Positions 2,819-11,087 of a stretch of DNA of 64,000 nucleotides are shown here, piece by piece. Positions within the stretch are counted from its first letter, which is position 1. The number at the start of each line of letters is the position of its first letter. The notes beneath the pieces are model-generated. The model did not search any database, was not told where the DNA came from, and saw only the letters and a list, made by a program, of their open reading frames with translations. The stretch is from positions 1-64,000 of the forward strand of contig NZ_SLXU01000010.1 of NCBI RefSeq assembly GCF_004343505.1. The letters are read 5' to 3'. The DNA comes from Rhodovulum bhavnagarense (GTDB taxonomy: Bacteria; Pseudomonadota; Alphaproteobacteria; Rhodobacterales; Rhodobacteraceae). The position numbers were made by a program, and so were the translations under genes.

Positions 2819-4663
2819 ATGCCCGACGCCGTGCCGATGGCCGACCCGCTGGCCAGCCTGCTCTGCCTGCCGCCGTTCGATCGGCTGCCGGAGGGGGCGC
2901 GCAGGGGATTGACAGGGCAGGTCACGCGAAGAACCCTGGCCGAGGGCCAGACCATTTGCCGGATGGGCGAAAAGCTGGACGGGCTTTACGTGATCGAGAC
3001 CGGAAGCGCCGACCTGGAGGATGATGGCGGGCGGTTGATCGACCATCGCGGACGCGGTGACGTGATCGGCGAACGCGGGCTGCTGCGGCTGGGCCGCGCC
3101 ACGCTCAGCGCGCGGGCCGCCGAGGCCGCCACCCTGCTGTTGCTGCCCAAGGACGCGTTCCACGACCTTATGGACGACGTGCCGGCCTTTGCCACCTGGT
3201 TCGCGCGCGCCATCCCCGGCCGCGCCGCCCCGGCCGAGGAAGAGGCCGCAGGGCTGACCGCGTTGAAGGTGGCCGACCTGATGACCAATACGCCGGTCAC
3301 CTGCCCAGAGGGGGCGACGGCGACCGATGTCGCGCGGATCATGCGCCAGCACGGGATTTCCTCGGTCATCGTGATGGCGGGGGCGGCGCCCGTGGGTATC
3401 GTCACGGTGCGCGACCTGTCCGGCAAGGTGCTGGCCGAGGGGCTGGACGGCACAACGCCGGTAACGCGAGTGATGACCCGCGATCCGATCACCATCGGCC
3501 CCGACGCGCTGGGGCTGGATGCGTTGATGGTGCTGGCCGACAACAATATCAGCCACCTGCCGGTGGCCGAGGGTGGGCGCATCGTCGGGCTGATCGGGCG
3601 CACCGACCTGTTCCGCCAACAGGCCGCCACCGCCAGCCACATGATCGTGGAAATCGTCGATGCCGAGGACGCGCAGGACATGGCCCGCGTCGTCGCCCAG
3701 GTGCCGGCCCTGCTGGCACAGCTGGTGCGCGCGGGCGTGGATGCGGGCGCGATCACCCGGCGGATCACCGACATCACCGACGCGATCACCCGCCGCCTGC
3801 TGGCCCTGGCCGAGGCGCGTCTGGGCCCGCCGCCGGTGCCCTATCTGTGGCTGGCCTGCGGCAGCCAGGGCCGGCGCGAACAGACCGGCGTCAGCGATCA
3901 GGACAACTGCCTGATCCTGGACGACGCCGCCACGCCGGACCATGACGCCTATTTCGCGGAACTGGCAAAATTCGTCTCGGACGGGCTGAACACCTGCGGT
4001 TTCGTCTATTGCCCCGGCGACATGATGGCGACCAACCCGCGCTGGCGCCAACCGCGCCGGGTCTGGCGCGACTACTTCGCCGGCTGGATCGCCCAGCCCG
4101 ACAACGAGGCGCAGATGCTGGCCTCGGTCATGTTCGACCTGCGCCCGATCGGCGGTGAGGCCGCGCTGTTCGAGGCGTTGCAGGCCGAAACGCTGGAGAT
4201 GGCGCGCAAGAACTCGATCTTCGTGGCGCATATGGTGTCGAACTCGCTGAAGCACGCGCCGCCCCTGGGCCTGTTGCGCGGCTTTGCGCTGATCCGCTCG
4301 GGCGAGCACAAGGACATGGTCGATCTCAAGCTGTCCGGCGTGGTGCCGGTGGTCGATCTGGGCCGGGTCTATGCGCTGCAGGGCAACCTGACGGCGGTCA
4401 ACACCCGCGAACGGCTGGTCGAGGCCAGCGCCGCCGGGGTGATTTCCCAGGCCGGGGCCCATGATCTGATCGACGCCTACGACCTGATCGCCGAAACCCG
4501 CCTGCGCCACCAGGCCGAGCAGATCCAGGCCGGCCGGGCGCCGGACAATTTCATGGCCCCCGCGCACCTGTCGGAACTGGAGCGCAAGCACCTGCGCGAT
4601 GCCTTCATGGTGGTCAAGACGATGCAATCCGCGGCCAGCCAGGGCCGCGGCGTGATGGGGTAG
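2819..4663 (+). CDS. cNMP-binding / CBS pair / DUF294 nucleotidyltransferase-like signalling protein
   Basis: This 614-residue soluble protein has three parts. Residues about 15-120 form a cyclic-nucleotide-binding-like domain. Residues about 151-268 form a CBS pair (VADLMTNTPVTC, then VMTRDPITIGPDAL). The remainder is a DUF294 nucleotidyltransferase-like domain plus its C-terminal helical partner. The DUF294 motif GSQGRREQTGVSDQDN is intact (G348, S349, D360, D362), resembling the GlnD/GlnE fold active site. In many proteobacteria such a gene sits between an acetate permease and a DnaQ-like exonuclease, as here. Substrate and target are unknown. The start ATG has AAGAGG 6 bases upstream. It is likely the first gene of a new transcript, since a terminator precedes it. 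Confidence 0.88.
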   Translation: MPDAVPMADPLASLLCLPPFDRLPEGARRGLTGQVTRRTLAEGQTICRMGEKLDGLYVIETGSADLEDDGGRLIDHRGRGDVIGERGLLRLGRATLSARAAEAATLLLLPKDAFHDLMDDVPAFATWFARAIPGRAAPAEEEAAGLTALKVADLMTNTPVTCPEGATATDVARIMRQHGISSVIVMAGAAPVGIVTVRDLSGKVLAEGLDGTTPVTRVMTRDPITIGPDALGLDALMVLADNNISHLPVAEGGRIVGLIGRTDLFRQQAATASHMIVEIVDAEDAQDMARVVAQVPALLAQLVRAGVDAGAITRRITDITDAITRRLLALAEARLGPPPVPYLWLACGSQGRREQTGVSDQDNCLILDDAATPDHDAYFAELAKFVSDGLNTCGFVYCPGDMMATNPRWRQPRRVWRDYFAGWIAQPDNEAQMLASVMFDLRPIGGEAALFEALQAETLEMARKNSIFVAHMVSNSLKHAPPLGLLRGFALIRSGEHKDMVDLKLSGVVPVVDLGRVYALQGNLTAVNTRERLVEASAAGVISQAGAHDLIDAYDLIAETRLRHQAEQIQAGRAPDNFMAPAHLSELERKHLRDAFMVVKTMQSAASQGRGVMG

Positions 4664-4666
4664 GCG

Positions 4667-5197
4667 ATGTTCCTGGAACTGATCGCAAGTTTCGTGGCCG
4701 GTCTGGGCGCGGTGGGGCTGGTGCTGGCACTGGACCGGCTGACCGGGCGGCATCTGCCGCGCTGGCTGGTCCCGCTGGCCGCGGGGGGAGCGATGATCGG
4801 TTACGCGGTATGGTCGGAATATAGCTGGGCGCCGCGCACCGTGGCGGGCTTGCCCTCGGGCGTGGTCGAGATCGAGCGCATCGCCGAGCGTAAGCCCTGG
4901 AAACCCTGGACCTATGCGGTGCCACAAGTCACGCGGCTGATGACGGCGGATGTGGGCGGGGCGGCCACGCGGGCGGATGCCCCGGGTCTGCGTCTGGTCA
5001 CGCTCTACGCCTTTGCCCGATGGCAGCCGACCCGGGCGATCCCGCAACTTGTCGATTGCACCGGTGGCGCACGTGCCGATGTCACCGACGCGGTGCTGGC
5101 AGATCCGGCGGCGGCGGACTGGCGCGCGCTGGCGGCGGACGATCCGCTGCGCCGCGCGGTCTGCGACGGCGCAGATTGGGGCGGGGACGGCTCGTGA
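4667..5197 (+). CDS. hypothetical membrane-anchored protein
   Basis: The product is 176 residues with two N-terminal hydrophobic helices (about residues 3-22 and 34-52), then a hydrophilic domain with no motif I recognise; two Cys (in VDCTG and VCDGAD) lie in that domain. It starts 3 bases after the DUF294 gene and its TGA overlaps the GTG of the response regulator, so it is translated as part of this operon. Proteins of this shape accompany DUF294 genes in Rhodobacterales as far as I recall, but no function is assigned. The first helix could also be an uncleaved signal anchor. Confidence 0.75.
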   Translation: MFLELIASFVAGLGAVGLVLALDRLTGRHLPRWLVPLAAGGAMIGYAVWSEYSWAPRTVAGLPSGVVEIERIAERKPWKPWTYAVPQVTRLMTADVGGAATRADAPGLRLVTLYAFARWQPTRAIPQLVDCTGGARADVTDAVLADPAAADWRALAADDPLRRAVCDGADWGGDGS

Positions 5198-5577
5198 AGG
5201 GGCGGCGCATTCTGCTGGCCGAGGACGAGGACGGCATCGCCCTGGCGCTTGACTATCTGCTGTCGCGGGCCGGATATGAGGTGGCCCGCGTTGCAGACGG
5301 GCAGACGGCATTGGCGGCGTTGGAGGAGACGCCGCCGGACCTGGTGATCCTGGACGTGATGCTGCCCGGCAAGACGGGCTACGAGATCTGTCAGGATATC
5401 CGGGGCAAACGGGATCTCGGGGCCCTCAAGATCCTGATGATGACGGCGCGCGGCGGGGAGGTCGAGCGGCGCAAGGGGCTGGCGCTGGGGGCGGATGCGT
5501 TCCTGGCCAAACCCTTTGCAACCGCGGATCTCTTGGCCCAGATCCGCGCGTTGCTGGGGGGAGAGGTGGATGCATGA
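5194..5577 (+). CDS. single-domain response regulator (receiver only)
   Basis: This is a 127-residue stand-alone receiver. The start is GTG at 5194, overlapping the preceding stop (GTGA); in-frame sequence upstream is shadow of the previous gene. The phosphorylation site is complete: acidic pocket EDED at residues 10-13, phospho-acceptor D54 in ILDVMLPGK, T84 and K106 (AKPF). There is no output domain after residue 127, so it acts by protein contact, like CheY or Spo0F. The following gene encodes a degenerate kinase-like protein starting 8 bases before this stop. This gene is therefore tightly coupled with a partner that probably cannot phosphorylate it. Confidence 0.9.
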   Translation: MKGRRILLAEDEDGIALALDYLLSRAGYEVARVADGQTALAALEETPPDLVILDVMLPGKTGYEICQDIRGKRDLGALKILMMTARGGEVERRKGLALGADAFLAKPFATADLLAQIRALLGGEVDA

Positions 5578-7624
5578 GCGGCTTGGGTTAAGATTACGGT
5601 TCGCCCTGTTTTTCGCCGCGCTTGCGGCGGGTGGCGTGACGGCGCTGGCAGTGGGGCTGTGGCTGGGTCATGCGCGCGCGGGTGGCCCTTTCGAGGGCTA
5701 TCTGATCGCGGGGCTGGTCTCGGGCATTGGTGTGGCGGGGCTGGCGGCCTGGGTGGGGCTTTTGTTCGATGAACATGTGGCTCGCCCGATCCTGGCGCTG
5801 GCCGCCGATCTGACAACCCGCGCCCGCGCCGATATCGACGCAGGCATCGACGAGACCCGCGCGCGCTATCTGGGGGCGTTGGCGCCCGCGGCGAACGCGA
5901 TCCACGATGCGCTGGCCGTCACCCGCGCCGCGCAGGACCGCGTGGTGGCCGAGCGCACGGCGCAGATCAACCGCGAAAAGGCGATGTTCGAGGCATTGTT
6001 GCGCGATCTGGCCGAGGGCGTGGTGGTGGCGACTCCAGACCATCGGATCATGCTCTATAACCGCGCGGCGCAGGGACTTCTGGGTGATCTGGGGCTGGAT
6101 CGGTCGCTGACCGCTTTCCTGCGTCCCGAGCCATTGTCGCACGCGCTGGACCGCATGGTCGCGCGCGCCGCCCGCGGCGAGCACGAGGCCGAGCAATTCC
6201 TCGCCGCCACCGCCTGTGGCGAACGTTTCCTGATGGTGCGCGTCAGCCCCGTTGGCGTCGAGGGACAGCGCGCGGGCTATGTGATGATCTTTCACGACGC
6301 GACCGAGGATTTGCGTGCCCATGCCGAGAGAGATCACCTGTTCAACATGCTGCTCGACAAGGTGCGCCGCCCGACCGCCGCGCTGGGCGCGCTGTTGGAT
6401 GCGGTGGGCGACCCCGATTTGTCAGGGGATCGACGCGCCGGTTTCCTGGCCATGATGGGAAAGGAACAGTCTGCCCTTGCGGATACCGTCCACGAGGTGG
6501 CCGAACGGCATGGCGCGGCGACTGCGCGGCACTGGCCGATGCCTGCCGTCGCCTCTGATGATATTTTCGATGCGTTGCAGGCCCGCCTGCCATTGCCGCT
6601 GAACCACAAGGGCCGCCGGCATTTCATCCGCTGCGACGGGTTCGCGATGACCGAATTGCTGGTGCGGGTGATCGAGGGGCTGGCCGGGCAGGATACGCGC
6701 GGCGATTTCGTTCTCAGCGCCGAAGCCGAGGGCCGCGAGGTGCGCCTGGCGCTGGGCTGGTGCGGGCCGGACGTGCCCGACGGCAAGCTGGACGCGTGGC
6801 TGGAGGAACCGCTTTCGGCCGGCTACGGCCAATATACCGGCCGCGACGCGCTGGAAGGCCATGGTACCGACCTGTGGTCGGAACCGACCGAGACCGGTCA
6901 CCGGCTTGTGCTGCCGCTGCGCGCGGCCGATGCGCCGGATCTGACCCCGGCCGATCCGCGCCCGGAATTCTACGATTTTACCCTGCCGCCGCCGGCCACC
7001 GAGGGGCTGGCCGAGCGCCCGCTGTCAGAGCTGCGCTTCGTGGTGTTCGACACCGAGACCACCGGCCTGTCCCCGAAAGGTGGCGACGAGATCGTGCAGA
7101 TCGCAGGCGTTCGTATCGTCAACGGCCGCATCCTGCGGGGCGAGGTGTTCGACACGCTGGTCAATCCCGGCCGGCACATCCCCGCAAGCTCGACCGCGAT
7201 CCACGGGATCGACGATGCCCGCGTGCGCGGCGCCCCCGACCTGATCGCGGCGGCGCAACGGTTCCACGATTTTTGCGAGGGCGCGGTTCTGGTCGCCCAT
7301 AACGCGGCTTTCGACATGGCCTTCCTGCGAATGAAGGAATCGCGACTTCGGGTCATGTTTGACCATCCGGTTCTGTGCACCGTTTTGCTGTCGGCCGGCC
7401 TTTACCCCCATGCCGACGACCTGACGCTGGATGCGCTGGCCGCCCGGTTCGGCGTCAACCTGCCCGAGGATCACCGGCATACCGCGCTGGGCGACGCGCT
7501 GGCGACGGCCGAAGTCTTTCGCCACATGCTGGGCGAGATGGAGGGCGCTGGCCTGCGCACCCTCGGCGAGGCGCTGGCGCGCAGCGACGAGATGCACCGC
7601 ATCCGACGCGCGCAGCGTTACTAG
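5570..7624 (+). CDS. degenerate sensor-kinase-like protein fused to a DnaQ-type DEDDh exonuclease
   Basis: The protein is 684 residues from ATG 5570, which has GGGGGGAGAGG just upstream; the frame is open further upstream but overlaps the receiver gene. Residues about 11-31 and 44-66 are membrane helices. A linker helix and a PAS-like segment (about 140-250) follow. A dimerisation-helix-like segment then carries DKVRRPTAAL where kinases have HELRTPL, so the phospho-acceptor His is D263. The ATPase-like region (about 340-450) lacks recognisable N and G boxes. Residues about 488-670 are a proofreading-type 3'-5' exonuclease with the full DEDDh set: D494 and E496 (DTETTG), D582 (HNAAFDMAF), H637 and D642. 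A free-standing exonuclease of this kind accompanies DUF294/symporter loci in gammaproteobacteria; the fusion here is unusual. Confidence 0.88.
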   Translation: MHERLGLRLRFALFFAALAAGGVTALAVGLWLGHARAGGPFEGYLIAGLVSGIGVAGLAAWVGLLFDEHVARPILALAADLTTRARADIDAGIDETRARYLGALAPAANAIHDALAVTRAAQDRVVAERTAQINREKAMFEALLRDLAEGVVVATPDHRIMLYNRAAQGLLGDLGLDRSLTAFLRPEPLSHALDRMVARAARGEHEAEQFLAATACGERFLMVRVSPVGVEGQRAGYVMIFHDATEDLRAHAERDHLFNMLLDKVRRPTAALGALLDAVGDPDLSGDRRAGFLAMMGKEQSALADTVHEVAERHGAATARHWPMPAVASDDIFDALQARLPLPLNHKGRRHFIRCDGFAMTELLVRVIEGLAGQDTRGDFVLSAEAEGREVRLALGWCGPDVPDGKLDAWLEEPLSAGYGQYTGRDALEGHGTDLWSEPTETGHRLVLPLRAADAPDLTPADPRPEFYDFTLPPPATEGLAERPLSELRFVVFDTETTGLSPKGGDEIVQIAGVRIVNGRILRGEVFDTLVNPGRHIPASSTAIHGIDDARVRGAPDLIAAAQRFHDFCEGAVLVAHNAAFDMAFLRMKESRLRVMFDHPVLCTVLLSAGLYPHADDLTLDALAARFGVNLPEDHRHTALGDALATAEVFRHMLGEMEGAGLRTLGEALARSDEMHRIRRAQRY

Positions 7625-7795: not shown

Positions 7796-8005
7796 ATGCA
7801 CGACAAAGACATGCGGCCGCCCTGGGGGCGGCGGTTCTGGATCGCGGCCATGGCCGTCGTCATCGTACTGGGCATCGCCGTGCCCTACGGTGTTCTTGCC
7901 GGGGCCGCGCCTGGCTATGCAGTCCTGTTGTTCTGGGGTGGTTTCGGGCTGGTCGTGATCGCGCTGGTCGCGCTGGCCGTTCTGCGCTGGAGGGTCGCGC
8001 CATGA
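7796..8005 (+). CDS. small two-helix membrane protein, probable symporter partner
   Basis: The product has 69 residues. After a basic N-terminus (MHDKDMRPPWGRR) there are two hydrophobic helices (about residues 15-35 and 41-63) and a short basic tail. The ATG has GCGGAGGAG 8 bases upstream. Its stop overlaps the symporter ATG at 8002 (ATGA), so translation is coupled. By position it parallels DUF4212 or DUF485 subunits of sodium:solute symporters, but I see no sequence motif that places it in those families. Being small and hydrophobic, it would easily be missed by automatic annotation. Confidence 0.75.
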   Translation: MHDKDMRPPWGRRFWIAAMAVVIVLGIAVPYGVLAGAAPGYAVLLFWGGFGLVVIALVALAVLRWRVAP

Positions 8006-9477
8006 TGTCCCCGTTGATCGTATGGGCCGCGATCGGCCTGTTCACCGTCCTGGGTTTTGTCATCGCCCTGCGCGCCGCGCGCGCCAATAGCGGAACCGCG
8101 GGCGATTATTATATCGCCGGGCGGGATGTCGGGGGCATGGTGGCGGGGCTGTCTTATGCCGCGACCACCTATTCTGCATTCATGCTGGTGGTGCTGACCG
8201 GGCTGACCTATCGCGGCGGCGCAGGTGCGCTTGGGTTTGAACTGATCTATTTCGCGGGGCTGTCGCTTTTGGTGGTCTTTGCGCCACGCTTCTGGCTGGT
8301 GGCCCGCCGCTGGGGCTTTATTTCCCCGGCCGAGATGATCGGCGCCCGCTATGGAAGCCGCAATGTCGCGCGGGCGATGGCGCTGGTCAGCCTGGTGTTC
8401 TTGTTGCCCTATTGCACCACCCAGATGGCCGGGATCGGCCTGTTGCTGTCGGGGGTGACCGATGGCGGCATCACCCTGTTCGGTGCCGTGGCCACGGGCG
8501 CGGCCCTCTCGATGTTCTGGGCGGTTCTGGCCGGTCTGCGTTCGGTCGCTTGGACGGATGCGGCGCTGTCGGTGGTGATGCTGGGATCGGGTCTGCTTGC
8601 GGTGGGGTTCGCTGTGTCCGAACTGGGGGGGCTTGCGGCCTTTGGCCAGGGGCTGGTCGCCGATCACGGCGCCTGGCTGGGCGTGCCGGGTTCGGGATTG
8701 TGGAGCCTGCCAACCTTTGTTGCCCTGGCCTTTCCGTGGTTCTTTTTCGCGCTATCGAACCCGCAGGTCAGCCAGCGATTGTTCGTGCTGCGCGATTTCC
8801 GCGCAATGCGGCGTATGATCCTATGGGTTCTGGGCTTTGGCTTTGTCTTTACGCTGATCGCGGTGGCCTGGGGGTTTGCGGCGTTGCAACTGGTGCCTGG
8901 GCTGGAAAACAGTTCCATGGCTACGCCCGCGCTGTTGACCTCGGGGGCGGTGCCGGTCTGGGTGGGGCTGTTGTTGATCCTCGGTATCCTGTCGGCGGCG
9001 ATTTCGACACTTGATTCCATCGCGCTTGCGGTGGGCGCGATGATCGCGCGTGATTTCGTCCGGCGCGAGGGAGTGTCCAATGACGGGCTGCAAATCCTGG
9101 CCGGGCGCGTCGTGATCGTTGGCGTGATCCTGTTTGCCAGTTATTTCGCCCTGCAAAAGGCCCAGGTCGTCGACCAGTTGGCGGCGCTGTCGGCGGCCGG
9201 CCTCTTGGTGACTGTCCCGCCGATCTTCGGCGCGTTCTTCTGGTCGCGGGGGACGGCGGCGGGGGCGCTGGCCGGTATCCTCGGCGGGGCCGCGGTCGCG
9301 GTTTGGATGGCGATCCTGCAAGGGGTCAGCGTGTTCAACCCGTTGCTTCCGTTCACGGTGGGCGGCGTCAGCGCGGCGTTGTTCGTGGGCGTCAGCCTTG
9401 CCACGCGGCCCCGCGCGGGCGCATTGGATTTCGCGGCCGAGATCGCGGACGACATGTCGCGTCACCGGGCCTGGTAG
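8002..9477 (+). CDS. sodium:solute symporter family protein
   Basis: This is a 491-residue sodium:solute symporter with about 13 membrane segments and the family sequence DYYIAGRDVGGMVAGLSYAATTYSA near the N-terminus. The start is ATG 8002, overlapping the small protein's stop; ATG 8005 is an equally good alternative. In-frame sequence upstream to 7375 is shadow of other genes. It lacks the acidic insertion of the first symporter, so it is a different subfamily. The substrate is unknown; linkage to acs and the DUF294/exonuclease genes suggests a carboxylate. The gene is followed by a convergent phosphate permease with a hairpin between them. Confidence 0.88.
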   Translation: MMSPLIVWAAIGLFTVLGFVIALRAARANSGTAGDYYIAGRDVGGMVAGLSYAATTYSAFMLVVLTGLTYRGGAGALGFELIYFAGLSLLVVFAPRFWLVARRWGFISPAEMIGARYGSRNVARAMALVSLVFLLPYCTTQMAGIGLLLSGVTDGGITLFGAVATGAALSMFWAVLAGLRSVAWTDAALSVVMLGSGLLAVGFAVSELGGLAAFGQGLVADHGAWLGVPGSGLWSLPTFVALAFPWFFFALSNPQVSQRLFVLRDFRAMRRMILWVLGFGFVFTLIAVAWGFAALQLVPGLENSSMATPALLTSGAVPVWVGLLLILGILSAAISTLDSIALAVGAMIARDFVRREGVSNDGLQILAGRVVIVGVILFASYFALQKAQVVDQLAALSAAGLLVTVPPIFGAFFWSRGTAAGALAGILGGAAVAVWMAILQGVSVFNPLLPFTVGGVSAALFVGVSLATRPRAGALDFAAEIADDMSRHRAW

Positions 9478-9493
9478 TCCGGCCCACAGGCGC

Positions 9494-9526
9494 CGGGCGG
9501 GGAACGCTGTGCCAGTCCCCCGCCCG
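9494..9526. terminator. GC hairpin between convergent genes
   Basis: Nine-base arms CGGGCGGGG and CCCCGCCCG flank a 15-base loop between the symporter and the phosphate permease, which end towards each other. There is no T-run on either side, so termination is only plausible. Confidence 0.4.
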
Positions 9527-9605
9527 TCGCGGCATTCACAGGTGCGGATGGGGAGGTGATCTGGCCGGGGCCGTGCGCGGTCAAACGGCTCGGCGCGGCC
9601 GCATC

Positions 9606-11087
9606 TCACCCCATCAAGCCTCGCATAACGACGAACATGGCGCCAGACAAGATCGCCGCGGCCGGTACTGTGACAACCCAGGCGGCGATGATGGTCATGA
9701 AATGCGACCGGCGCACCAGTTTGCGGCGGCGGCGTTCCTCTGCGGGGATGCGTTTTGCGGGGGGGCGTGCCATGTTGATCTGGCGGGCGCGCTGTTCGGC
9801 ATGCCATTCGCGGAAAAAGCCCACGCCGAACACGCCGCCCACCGCGATGTGGGTGGAACTGACAGGCAGACCCAGCCAGGATGCCACGATCACCGTGATC
9901 GCCGCCGACAGTGCCACGCAATAGGCGCGCATCGGGTTCAACTTGGTGATCTGGCTGCCGACCATGCGGATCAGCTTGGGCCCGAACAGCATCAGCCCGA
10001 ACGAGATGCCGAAGGCGCCGATCACCATCACCCAGGCCGGGATCGCCACCTTGCCGGCCACCGCGCCGAATTCCTGCGCATGAACAATGGCTGCCAGCGG
10101 CCCCACGGCGTTGGCCACGTCATTCGCACCATGCGCAAAGGACAAGAGCGCCGCCGAGACCACCAGCGGAAAGCCGAACAGCGCCTTGAGCGATCTATTA
10201 CGGTTTTCCATTCCCCGTGACTGGCGCCGGATGGCCGGAATCGCGATCAGCCAGGCCGCGATACCTACCCCCGCCCCGATTGCGAGCGCGTGCGAAAGGT
10301 CGATATCGACAATACGCTTGAGGCCCTTCAACGCGAGGTAGCTCGCGAAGGTTCCTGCCATCAGACCGATCAGTGCCGGAACCCATCTGCGGGCCGCCGC
10401 GATCTTGTCCTCGACATAGATGATCCGCCATTTGATAAAGGCCAGGACAGCCGCCGCGATTACCCCGCCCAAGAGCGGTGAGATTACCCAGCTTGCCGCG
10501 ATGGCGCCCATCGTGGACCAGTTCACCGCCGCGCCCCCCGCGGCGGCGACCCCGGCGCCCAGGACCCCCCCCACCACGGAATGCGTGGTCGAGACCGGGG
10601 CGCTGAACCAGGTCGCGATATTCACCCAGATCGCCGCGGATAACAGCGCCGACATCATCGCCCAGGTAAAGACCTGTGCATTCTCTACCGCGGCCGGGTC
10701 AATGATGCCCTTGGAAATGGTCGAAACAACGTCGCCGCCCGCGATCAGCGCGCCGGCGCTTTCGAAGATGGCCGCGATCATGATGGCACCGCTCAGGGAC
10801 AGCGCGCTGGCCCCGACGGCGGGCCCCATGTTGTTGGCGACGTCGTTGGCCCCGATGTTCAGCGCCATATAGGCGCCAAAGCCCGCCGCCGCGACGATGA
10901 ACAGCATTCCGGGCGCCTGGCCGACGATGACACCTGCCACCAGCGCCGCGAGCACGATGAACGCAAGGGAGATACCCACGCCGATCAGCGGGCGTGACAC
11001 GTACATGGTAGCGGACTCGACCCGTGTCAGACGGTTGAGATCCTTGTCCAGCGTGCGCCACTGGTAACGCTTTGAACTGTCGGTCAC
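9606..11087 (-). CDS. PiT-family inorganic phosphate permease
   Basis: The product is 493 residues with two homologous halves. Each half carries the PiT signature: GANDVANNMGPAVGA in the N-terminal half and GANDVANAVGPLAAI in the C-terminal half. A hydrophilic, very basic loop near the C-terminus (EERRRRKLVRRS) precedes the last helices. It catalyses phosphate, probably metal-phosphate, symport across the inner membrane. The start is GTG at 11087; a later ATG (MYVSRPL) would drop the conserved-looking cytoplasmic N-terminus. It runs away from the Nudix gene, which lies upstream on the same strand with a 44-base gap. No PhoU-like gene is adjacent. Confidence 0.93.
   Translation of the reverse strand: MTDSSKRYQWRTLDKDLNRLTRVESATMYVSRPLIGVGISLAFIVLAALVAGVIVGQAPGMLFIVAAAGFGAYMALNIGANDVANNMGPAVGASALSLSGAIMIAAIFESAGALIAGGDVVSTISKGIIDPAAVENAQVFTWAMMSALLSAAIWVNIATWFSAPVSTTHSVVGGVLGAGVAAAGGAAVNWSTMGAIAASWVISPLLGGVIAAAVLAFIKWRIIYVEDKIAAARRWVPALIGLMAGTFASYLALKGLKRIVDIDLSHALAIGAGVGIAAWLIAIPAIRRQSRGMENRNRSLKALFGFPLVVSAALLSFAHGANDVANAVGPLAAIVHAQEFGAVAGKVAIPAWVMVIGAFGISFGLMLFGPKLIRMVGSQITKLNPMRAYCVALSAAITVIVASWLGLPVSSTHIAVGGVFGVGFFREWHAEQRARQINMARPPAKRIPAEERRRRKLVRRSHFMTIIAAWVVTVPAAAILSGAMFVVMRGLMG

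Follow-up and report, generated by a model that had tools for sequence, protein, structure and literature searches.

Some histidine kinase folds take part in signaling although the phospho-acceptor histidine has been replaced. DivL of Caulobacter, which has a tyrosine at this position, is described as a kinase fold that reads a phosphorylated response regulator (PMC5361649, PMC4211667). According to PMC5361649, DivL binds DivK~P without altering its phosphorylation and signals to the kinase CckA, and about 1% of histidine kinases carry a residue other than histidine at the phosphorylation site, aspartate included. A second group of described systems concerns the use of short carbon compounds. 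The regulon of the CrbS/CrbR (MxtR/ErdR) acetate switch is reported to contain acs, actP and a gene for a cyclic AMP (cAMP)-CBS-nucleotidyltransferase (PMC5715377). The present work concerns a gene of Rhodovulum bhavnagarense found in positions 1 to 64,000 of contig NZ_SLXU01000010.1 (assembly GCF_004343505.1), a stretch referred to below as the window. The gene (positions 5570-7624, forward strand) encodes a PAS-pseudokinase-DEDDh exonuclease fusion protein of 684 amino acids, which is a member of a real and widely distributed family.

The fusion protein resembles DivL in its PAS domain, in its transmitter with a substituted phospho-histidine and in having a single-domain response regulator as partner, the partnership here being seen by gene adjacency only. 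DivL has a tyrosine and an output to CckA, whereas the fusion protein has an attached nuclease as its apparent output and its regulator binding is putative. With DnaQ/PolC-type DEDDh exonucleases it shares the domain and the catalytic residues, but it is attached to a membrane sensor and scores below the equivalog cut-off for epsilon. CrbS/CrbR belongs to the same physiological field; the fusion protein differs in being a degenerate kinase with a nuclease. The MxtR/ErdR targets pp_0353 and pp_0354 are similar in that an RNase_T gene lies beside a CBS-type nucleotidyltransferase gene (in the window at 2819-4663) and in the tie to carboxylate use, pp_0353 being likened by its gene description and not by its sequence. 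A difference is that the short exonucleases beside DUF294 genes in other Pseudomonadota are mostly 200-300 amino acids from stop to stop, which leaves no room for sensor and transmitter parts.

No paper on a pseudokinase-exonuclease fusion was found among the open-licence PMC matches listed, and by term counts the word "exonuclease" is absent from PMC5715377, PMC5436829, PMC9100948, PMC3219624 and PMC3710099. An original prediction, made from the sequence of the window, held that a membrane-anchored and sensor-controlled nuclease has no well-described role. This was nearly right, but a related phenotype has been published: in Pseudomonas putida the RNase_T gene pp_0353 shares an operon with a CBS-domain gene, and deletion of pp_0353 is reported to delay growth on pyruvate (PMC9927547).

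Domain organization

The frame and coordinates given by the original prediction were confirmed, with an ATG at 5570 and a stop codon ending at 7624. An additional in-frame ATG is present upstream at 5495. Six named full-length relatives, with identities of 55-81%, were found in four Rhodovulum species, in Roseovarius azorensis and in one Rhodobacteraceae metagenome-assembled genome, and the match of all six begins at the first residue encoded from 5570. All parts of the protein are given on the forward strand. Two transmembrane helices near the N-terminus, proposed earlier, were recovered as hydropathy peaks at about residues 9-33 and 43-67 (5594-5770) and are predicted by hydropathy only. The segment previously called PAS-like matched Pfam PAS_4 at residues 147-246 (6008-6307) with an E-value of 2.6e-8. 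It is followed by a degenerate histidine kinase transmitter with DHp-like and ATPase-like parts at about residues 250-462 (6317-6955), recognized by hhalign and by a profile search against Protein Data Bank (PDB) sequences. The codon for D263, at the position of the phospho-acceptor histidine, is at 6356-6358. The C-terminal part is an RNase_T/DEDDh exonuclease domain at residues 491-650 (7040-7519).

The degenerate transmitter

The kinase ancestry of the transmitter was visible at the profile level only. In single-sequence Pfam searches, neither HisKA nor HATPase_c matched the fusion protein at E ≤ 1, and none of 23 long family members matched either model at E ≤ 0.1. No kinase match for the fusion protein was obtained with NCBIfam in single-sequence mode, and a six-frame search of its own genome with HisKA (PF00512) gave 17 matches, none of them inside the fusion gene. 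Eight of these 17 loci, picked by a recognizable H-box pattern and sufficient length, were used as a kinase reference. When 46 homologous transmitter segments were compared with the eight kinases by hhalign, the two groups aligned over 212 columns with a probability of 96.6% and an E-value of 6e-10, and D263 fell on the phospho-histidine. The PAS and exonuclease segments, used as controls against the same kinases, gave 0.3% and 0.6%. A profile of 17 segments searched against PDB sequences returned 38 rows at E ≤ 1, of which the top 16 were sensor or histidine kinases; the best match was ZraS (E 2.5e-8) and the second was DivL (4q20, E 3.6e-8). Taken singly, three of the 17 segments matched HisKA (best E 2.4e-4) and one matched HATPase_c (E 0.014).

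Catalytic residues of a kinase have been lost. In the alignment with the own-genome kinases, inspected by eye, the N-box asparagine, the G1-box aspartate and the G2 glycines are absent from the transmitter, and the fusion protein has no histidine at the D263 site or adjacent to it. Among 36 long proteins the D263 column holds D in 19, E in 13, A in three and G in one. Among 47 pseudokinase-bearing homologues it holds E in 22, D in 17, A in three, G in two, S in two and T in one, so that 39 of 47 are acidic and none has a histidine, the alignment of this column being unreliable in the most degraded of the 47 rows. As aligned, the frequency of an acidic residue at this column exceeds chance. Residues 250-462 are thus classed, by sequence comparison, as a genuine transmitter stripped of its catalytic residues.

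The pseudokinase is retained across several alphaproteobacterial families. Outside the Alphaproteobacteria it was found at five loci (L197, L204, L208, L210 and L226), all with an adjoining regulator gene. In the short homologues L068-L098 the N-terminal region runs straight into the exonuclease. These have a transmitter profile score of 0 and no regulator gene within 2.5 kb.

The exonuclease domain

RNase_T (PF00929) matched residues 491-650 with an E-value of 1.6e-36 and 126.8 bits against a cut-off of 24. All five DEDDh residues (D494, E496, D582, H637 and D642) are present in the fusion protein and were kept in all 66 family proteins, the fusion protein included. A wider set of 137 exonuclease open reading frames (ORFs) was taken from 136 of 146 loci searched; the exonuclease profile was built on 36 family sequences, and an attempt to widen it brought no additional ones. 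D494, E496, H637 and D642 were kept in 137 of 137 of these ORFs, and the D582 column held aspartate in 117 and glutamate in 20. Glutamate at this third acidic position was observed in some short exonucleases beside DUF294 genes in other Pseudomonadota, for example at L188-L192, L194, L203, L212, L214 and L215. The exonuclease domain of the fusion protein is apparently intact, and 3'-5' activity is predicted. With this, the earlier picture of a pseudokinase sensor joined to an intact DEDDh domain stood throughout: the aspartate sits where the histidine should be, and relatives have aspartate or another residue there but never histidine, the ATP-binding boxes are, by eye, not intact, HisKA and HATPase_c profiles are silent on the protein itself, and the nuclease residues are kept in close relatives.

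The closest solved relatives by sequence are the exonuclease domains of PolC and epsilon, which act on DNA. The fusion protein did not reach the epsilon equivalog TIGR01406 (119.3 bits, cut-off 222.7) but, with 106.4 bits against a cut-off of 71.5, passed the broader TIGR00573 ("exonuclease, DNA polymerase III, epsilon subunit family"), which is a domain-level and not an equivalog model. By the first score the protein is not the replicative proofreader. The suggestion in the original prediction that it could act on a nucleotide or RNA second signal found neither support nor contradiction. A second RNase_T gene is present elsewhere in the same genome.

Strong PADLOC matches were obtained with a CRISPR-associated DEDDh model (E 1.1e-40) and with candidate PDC-S48 models (4.9e-38 and 2e-28). 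Because these strong matches cover nothing beyond a generic exonuclease domain, and because the locus is a metabolic one, a defense role was set aside.

The adjoining response regulator

A single-domain response regulator is encoded directly upstream at 5191-5577 on the forward strand (Response_reg, E 1.2e-25), and the end of its gene and the beginning of the fusion gene have 8 bases in common. The acidic pair, the phospho-aspartate, the threonine and the lysine were recognized by eye. Also by eye, the regulator has kept the corresponding residues (acidic pair, Asp, Thr/Ser and Lys) at 27 of 28 family loci; L057 is the exception.

The association between regulator and pseudokinase was counted over 136 exonuclease ORFs, the split gene L067 having been dropped. 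A regulator gene was defined as an ORF of fewer than 310 amino acids scoring above 60 bits, and a pseudokinase as a profile score of at least 50 bits. A regulator gene was found within 500 bases of 40 of the 47 forms with a pseudokinase and of none of the 89 forms without one. Fisher's test gave 1.4e-27, a value that ignores relatedness, which inflates the counts. This gene association points to a coupling of the regulator to the pseudokinase.

The DUF294 partner and gene neighborhood

The locus has the order acs, VC_2705-family symporter, cyclic nucleotide (cNMP)/CBS-DUF294 nucleotidyltransferase, e176, response regulator and fusion gene. The same order, with acs where it was within reach and with or without the regulator, was found in nearly all of 65 Rhodobacteraceae loci mapped. 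The observation made in the original prediction was correct and its interpretation partly supported, but this conserved locus, the adjoining regulator and the DUF294 partner had been overlooked.

The DUF294 protein (2819-4663, forward strand) combines a cNMP-binding domain, two CBS domains, a DUF294 nucleotidyltransferase domain and DUF294_C, as identified by Pfam and by the active-site pattern. It is the only DUF294 match of the genome at E ≤ 0.001. In 64 of 66 family rows DUF294 lies on the same strand within 1.5 kb, and when DUF294 genes were taken as the starting point, an exonuclease ORF was present in 50 of 60 stretches examined. These stretches were 17 of 27 and 43 of 78 strong matches from two lists, the latter mainly top-ranked, and the rest of the 27 fell mostly in stretches that the analysis had already covered. 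Several share a genome or genus, and two of the ten without an exonuclease ORF, L183 and L209, are short contigs taken in full. Exonuclease, CBS and DUF294 parts are joined in one polypeptide at L130 and L131, as seen by reading the translations, and at L180, as seen by Pfam. A loose pattern detected the nucleotidyltransferase active-site motif in 145 of 146 DUF294 ORFs and failed on a fragment of the L067 locus; a strict pattern detected it in 125 of 146. In PADLOC, Pycsar models also matched the DUF294 protein in its cNMP-binding region (E 5.5e-12 and 1.2e-4), probably because both have a cyclic nucleotide domain.

The remaining upstream genes are all on the forward strand. The acetyl-CoA-synthetase-like gene is represented by its C-terminal part at 31-561 (AMP-binding_C, E 5.1e-27); it is cut by the contig start and is incomplete because the window begins at contig base 1. 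The ActP-like sodium/solute symporter at 915-2702 belongs to the VC_2705 family (TIGR03648, 821.6 bits, cut-off 320.75) and failed the ActP equivalog TIGR02711 (148.3 of 1099.25 bits), which leaves the substrate uncertain. A yjcH/DUF485 gene between the acs-like gene and the symporter is a presumption. The small conserved protein e176 (4667-5197) has a hydrophobic N-terminus by eye and no Pfam or NCBIfam family. It is present at 63 of the 65 Rhodobacteraceae loci and absent from L064 and L065.

Directly downstream of the fusion gene, 7796-9477 of the window holds two apparently overlapping frames, one a small ORF and the other a second sodium/solute symporter. The name DUF4212, considered for the small ORF (7796-8005), was dropped, as Pfam gave no match over the cut-off. 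Elsewhere in the genome, at about 8186-10249 of G000:C3 (L136, L234), a frame of 903 amino acids matched HisKA and, weakly and below the cut-off, SSF (E 5e-4); Pfam over 727 of its amino acids found HisKA and HATPase_c and no SSF. The frame might encode a symporter-type kinase similar to CrbS/RpuS.

Proposed mechanism and alternatives

The best explanation overall, which is put forward tentatively, is that of a DivL-like pseudokinase gating a nuclease that works with the DUF294 enzyme. Another kinase would phosphorylate the regulator encoded upstream; naming the frame of 903 amino acids as that kinase is a guess. The regulator, probably in its phosphorylated form, would dock on the degenerate transmitter (residues 250-462) as in DivL. 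Docking, together with input from the PAS domain, would shift the transmitter helices and thereby switch the 3'-5' exonuclease formed by the C-terminal DEDDh domain. This exonuclease would cooperate with the cNMP/CBS-controlled DUF294 nucleotidyltransferase next door. The DUF294 pairing suggests that it removes what this enzyme adds, most simply by stripping nucleotides from a protein or from an RNA 3' end, and the outcome would be a tuning of carboxylate uptake and activation (symporter, Acs). The parts of this proposal differ in strength. That the pseudokinase reads the regulator is somewhat probable, and gating of the nuclease output by the pseudokinase falls just short of probable. A writer/eraser pair with DUF294 is a doubtful suggestion from genomic association.

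Several observations weigh against the proposed mechanism. On a tree of the exonuclease domain both traits, pseudokinase and regulator gene, cluster strongly, with 10 and 11 parsimony changes where shuffling gave means of 39.7 and 35.6, and the counts are not independent. Six of 15 changing branches change both traits in a parsimony reconstruction that is weak and contains doubtful gains; the coupling would thus be more than a single event, with its strength uncertain. Seven of the 47 pseudokinase forms have no adjoining regulator gene (L059, L063, L065, L066, L099, L152 and L156). The DxxRRP-like motif at the D263 site is degraded in L059, L063, L066 and L099, L156 has lost the proline of the motif and has a weak regulator-like ORF only (38 bits), and the pseudokinase score of L065 is low (71 bits). 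The motif of L152 is normal, yet the regulator gene closest to it lies at a distance of about 4.6 kb and on the opposite strand. In the other direction, the short L161 and L162 have no pseudokinase and a regulator gene 1.5-1.7 kb away, and L057, L058, L060, L061, L062 and L064 retain the regulator gene despite an altered motif. Loss of the motif is therefore not always accompanied by loss of the regulator, which slightly lowers the belief in regulator reading and in nuclease gating. Many homologues have no pseudokinase at all, so that the core role does not depend on input from the regulator. Published phenotypes are also weak. A P. putida pp_0354 deletion is described in PMC9927547 as having no pyruvate defect, and neither pp_0353 nor pp_0354 deletion as impairing growth on acetate; deletion of pflu5625, a cAMP-CBS-nucleotidyltransferase gene, is described in PMC5715377 as having a negligible effect on acetate. 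Together with the pp_0353 phenotype, these results do not favor a simple antagonistic writer/eraser pair, and the overall confidence was lowered by them and by the six loci with an altered motif and a retained regulator.

In another explanation, the PAS domain alone would control the nuclease and the kinase-like part would be a dimerizing spacer or a decaying relic. Many homologues, such as L068-L098, do without this part; it is less conserved than the nuclease in the 36 long forms (means of 25-residue blocks about 0.33-0.59, against mostly 0.70-0.79 for the exonuclease), and the six loci just mentioned kept their regulator gene with an altered motif. Such a spacer or relic would not, however, readily explain why the pseudokinase persists across alphaproteobacterial families and at five loci of other classes with an adjoining regulator, or why all 89 forms that lack it also lack a regulator gene in the nearest 500 bases, and this explanation is considered rather unlikely. 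A further possibility, that the protein is an unusual but active kinase which phosphorylates the regulator through another residue, would account for the adjoining regulator gene, as in ordinary two-component systems, and could draw on the few single-sequence matches to HisKA (three of 17 segments) and HATPase_c (one of 17). The loss of the N-box asparagine and the G1-box aspartate, as judged by eye, and the lack of HisKA or HATPase_c matches in all 23 long members at E ≤ 0.1 make it very improbable.

Two further explanations concern the substrate of the nuclease. A membrane-bound exonuclease for DNA repair or proofreading would agree with a DEDDh domain nearest to PolC and epsilon and with the score above the TIGR00573 cut-off, but it fits poorly with the conserved carbon-uptake locus, with the DUF294 pairing and with the failed epsilon equivalog cut-off, and it is given hardly any weight. 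The nuclease might instead be an mRNA-decay factor that trims transcripts for carbon use, with the sensor adjusting its rate. A role in mRNA decay is a speculation offered for pp_0353 by its authors (PMC9927547), and a membrane location beside the symporter would presumably suit local control. The kinship with PolC and epsilon speaks against such a factor, and no RNA-specific feature was found, though no systematic search for one was made; it is regarded as improbable. The DivL-like pseudokinase gating a nuclease that works with DUF294 was retained as the preferred reading.

Conclusion

In its fullest form, the proposal would describe a two-component system running backwards, in which the phosphorylated regulator is read by the pseudokinase and the exonuclease erases nucleotide marks written by the DUF294 enzyme on a carbon-uptake target. 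This full form is unlikely as it stands, and equally so the reversible nucleotidylation switch in many Pseudomonadota that would follow from it. According to the authors of the DivL study, reports of pseudokinases in bacterial two-component signaling were few, and they raised the question of whether signal flow is reversed in other systems as well (PMC5361649). The fusion family would be a large, widespread and testable case of such a reversal, by analogy a DivL-like reader of a regulator, and its output would be a nuclease. With the DUF294 nucleotidyltransferase and exonuclease pair placed beside acs and a carboxylate-type symporter, the target of the pair could be sought by genetics in harmless bacteria. 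The fusion protein may be a switch in which a signal enters through a dead kinase and leaves through a nuclease.

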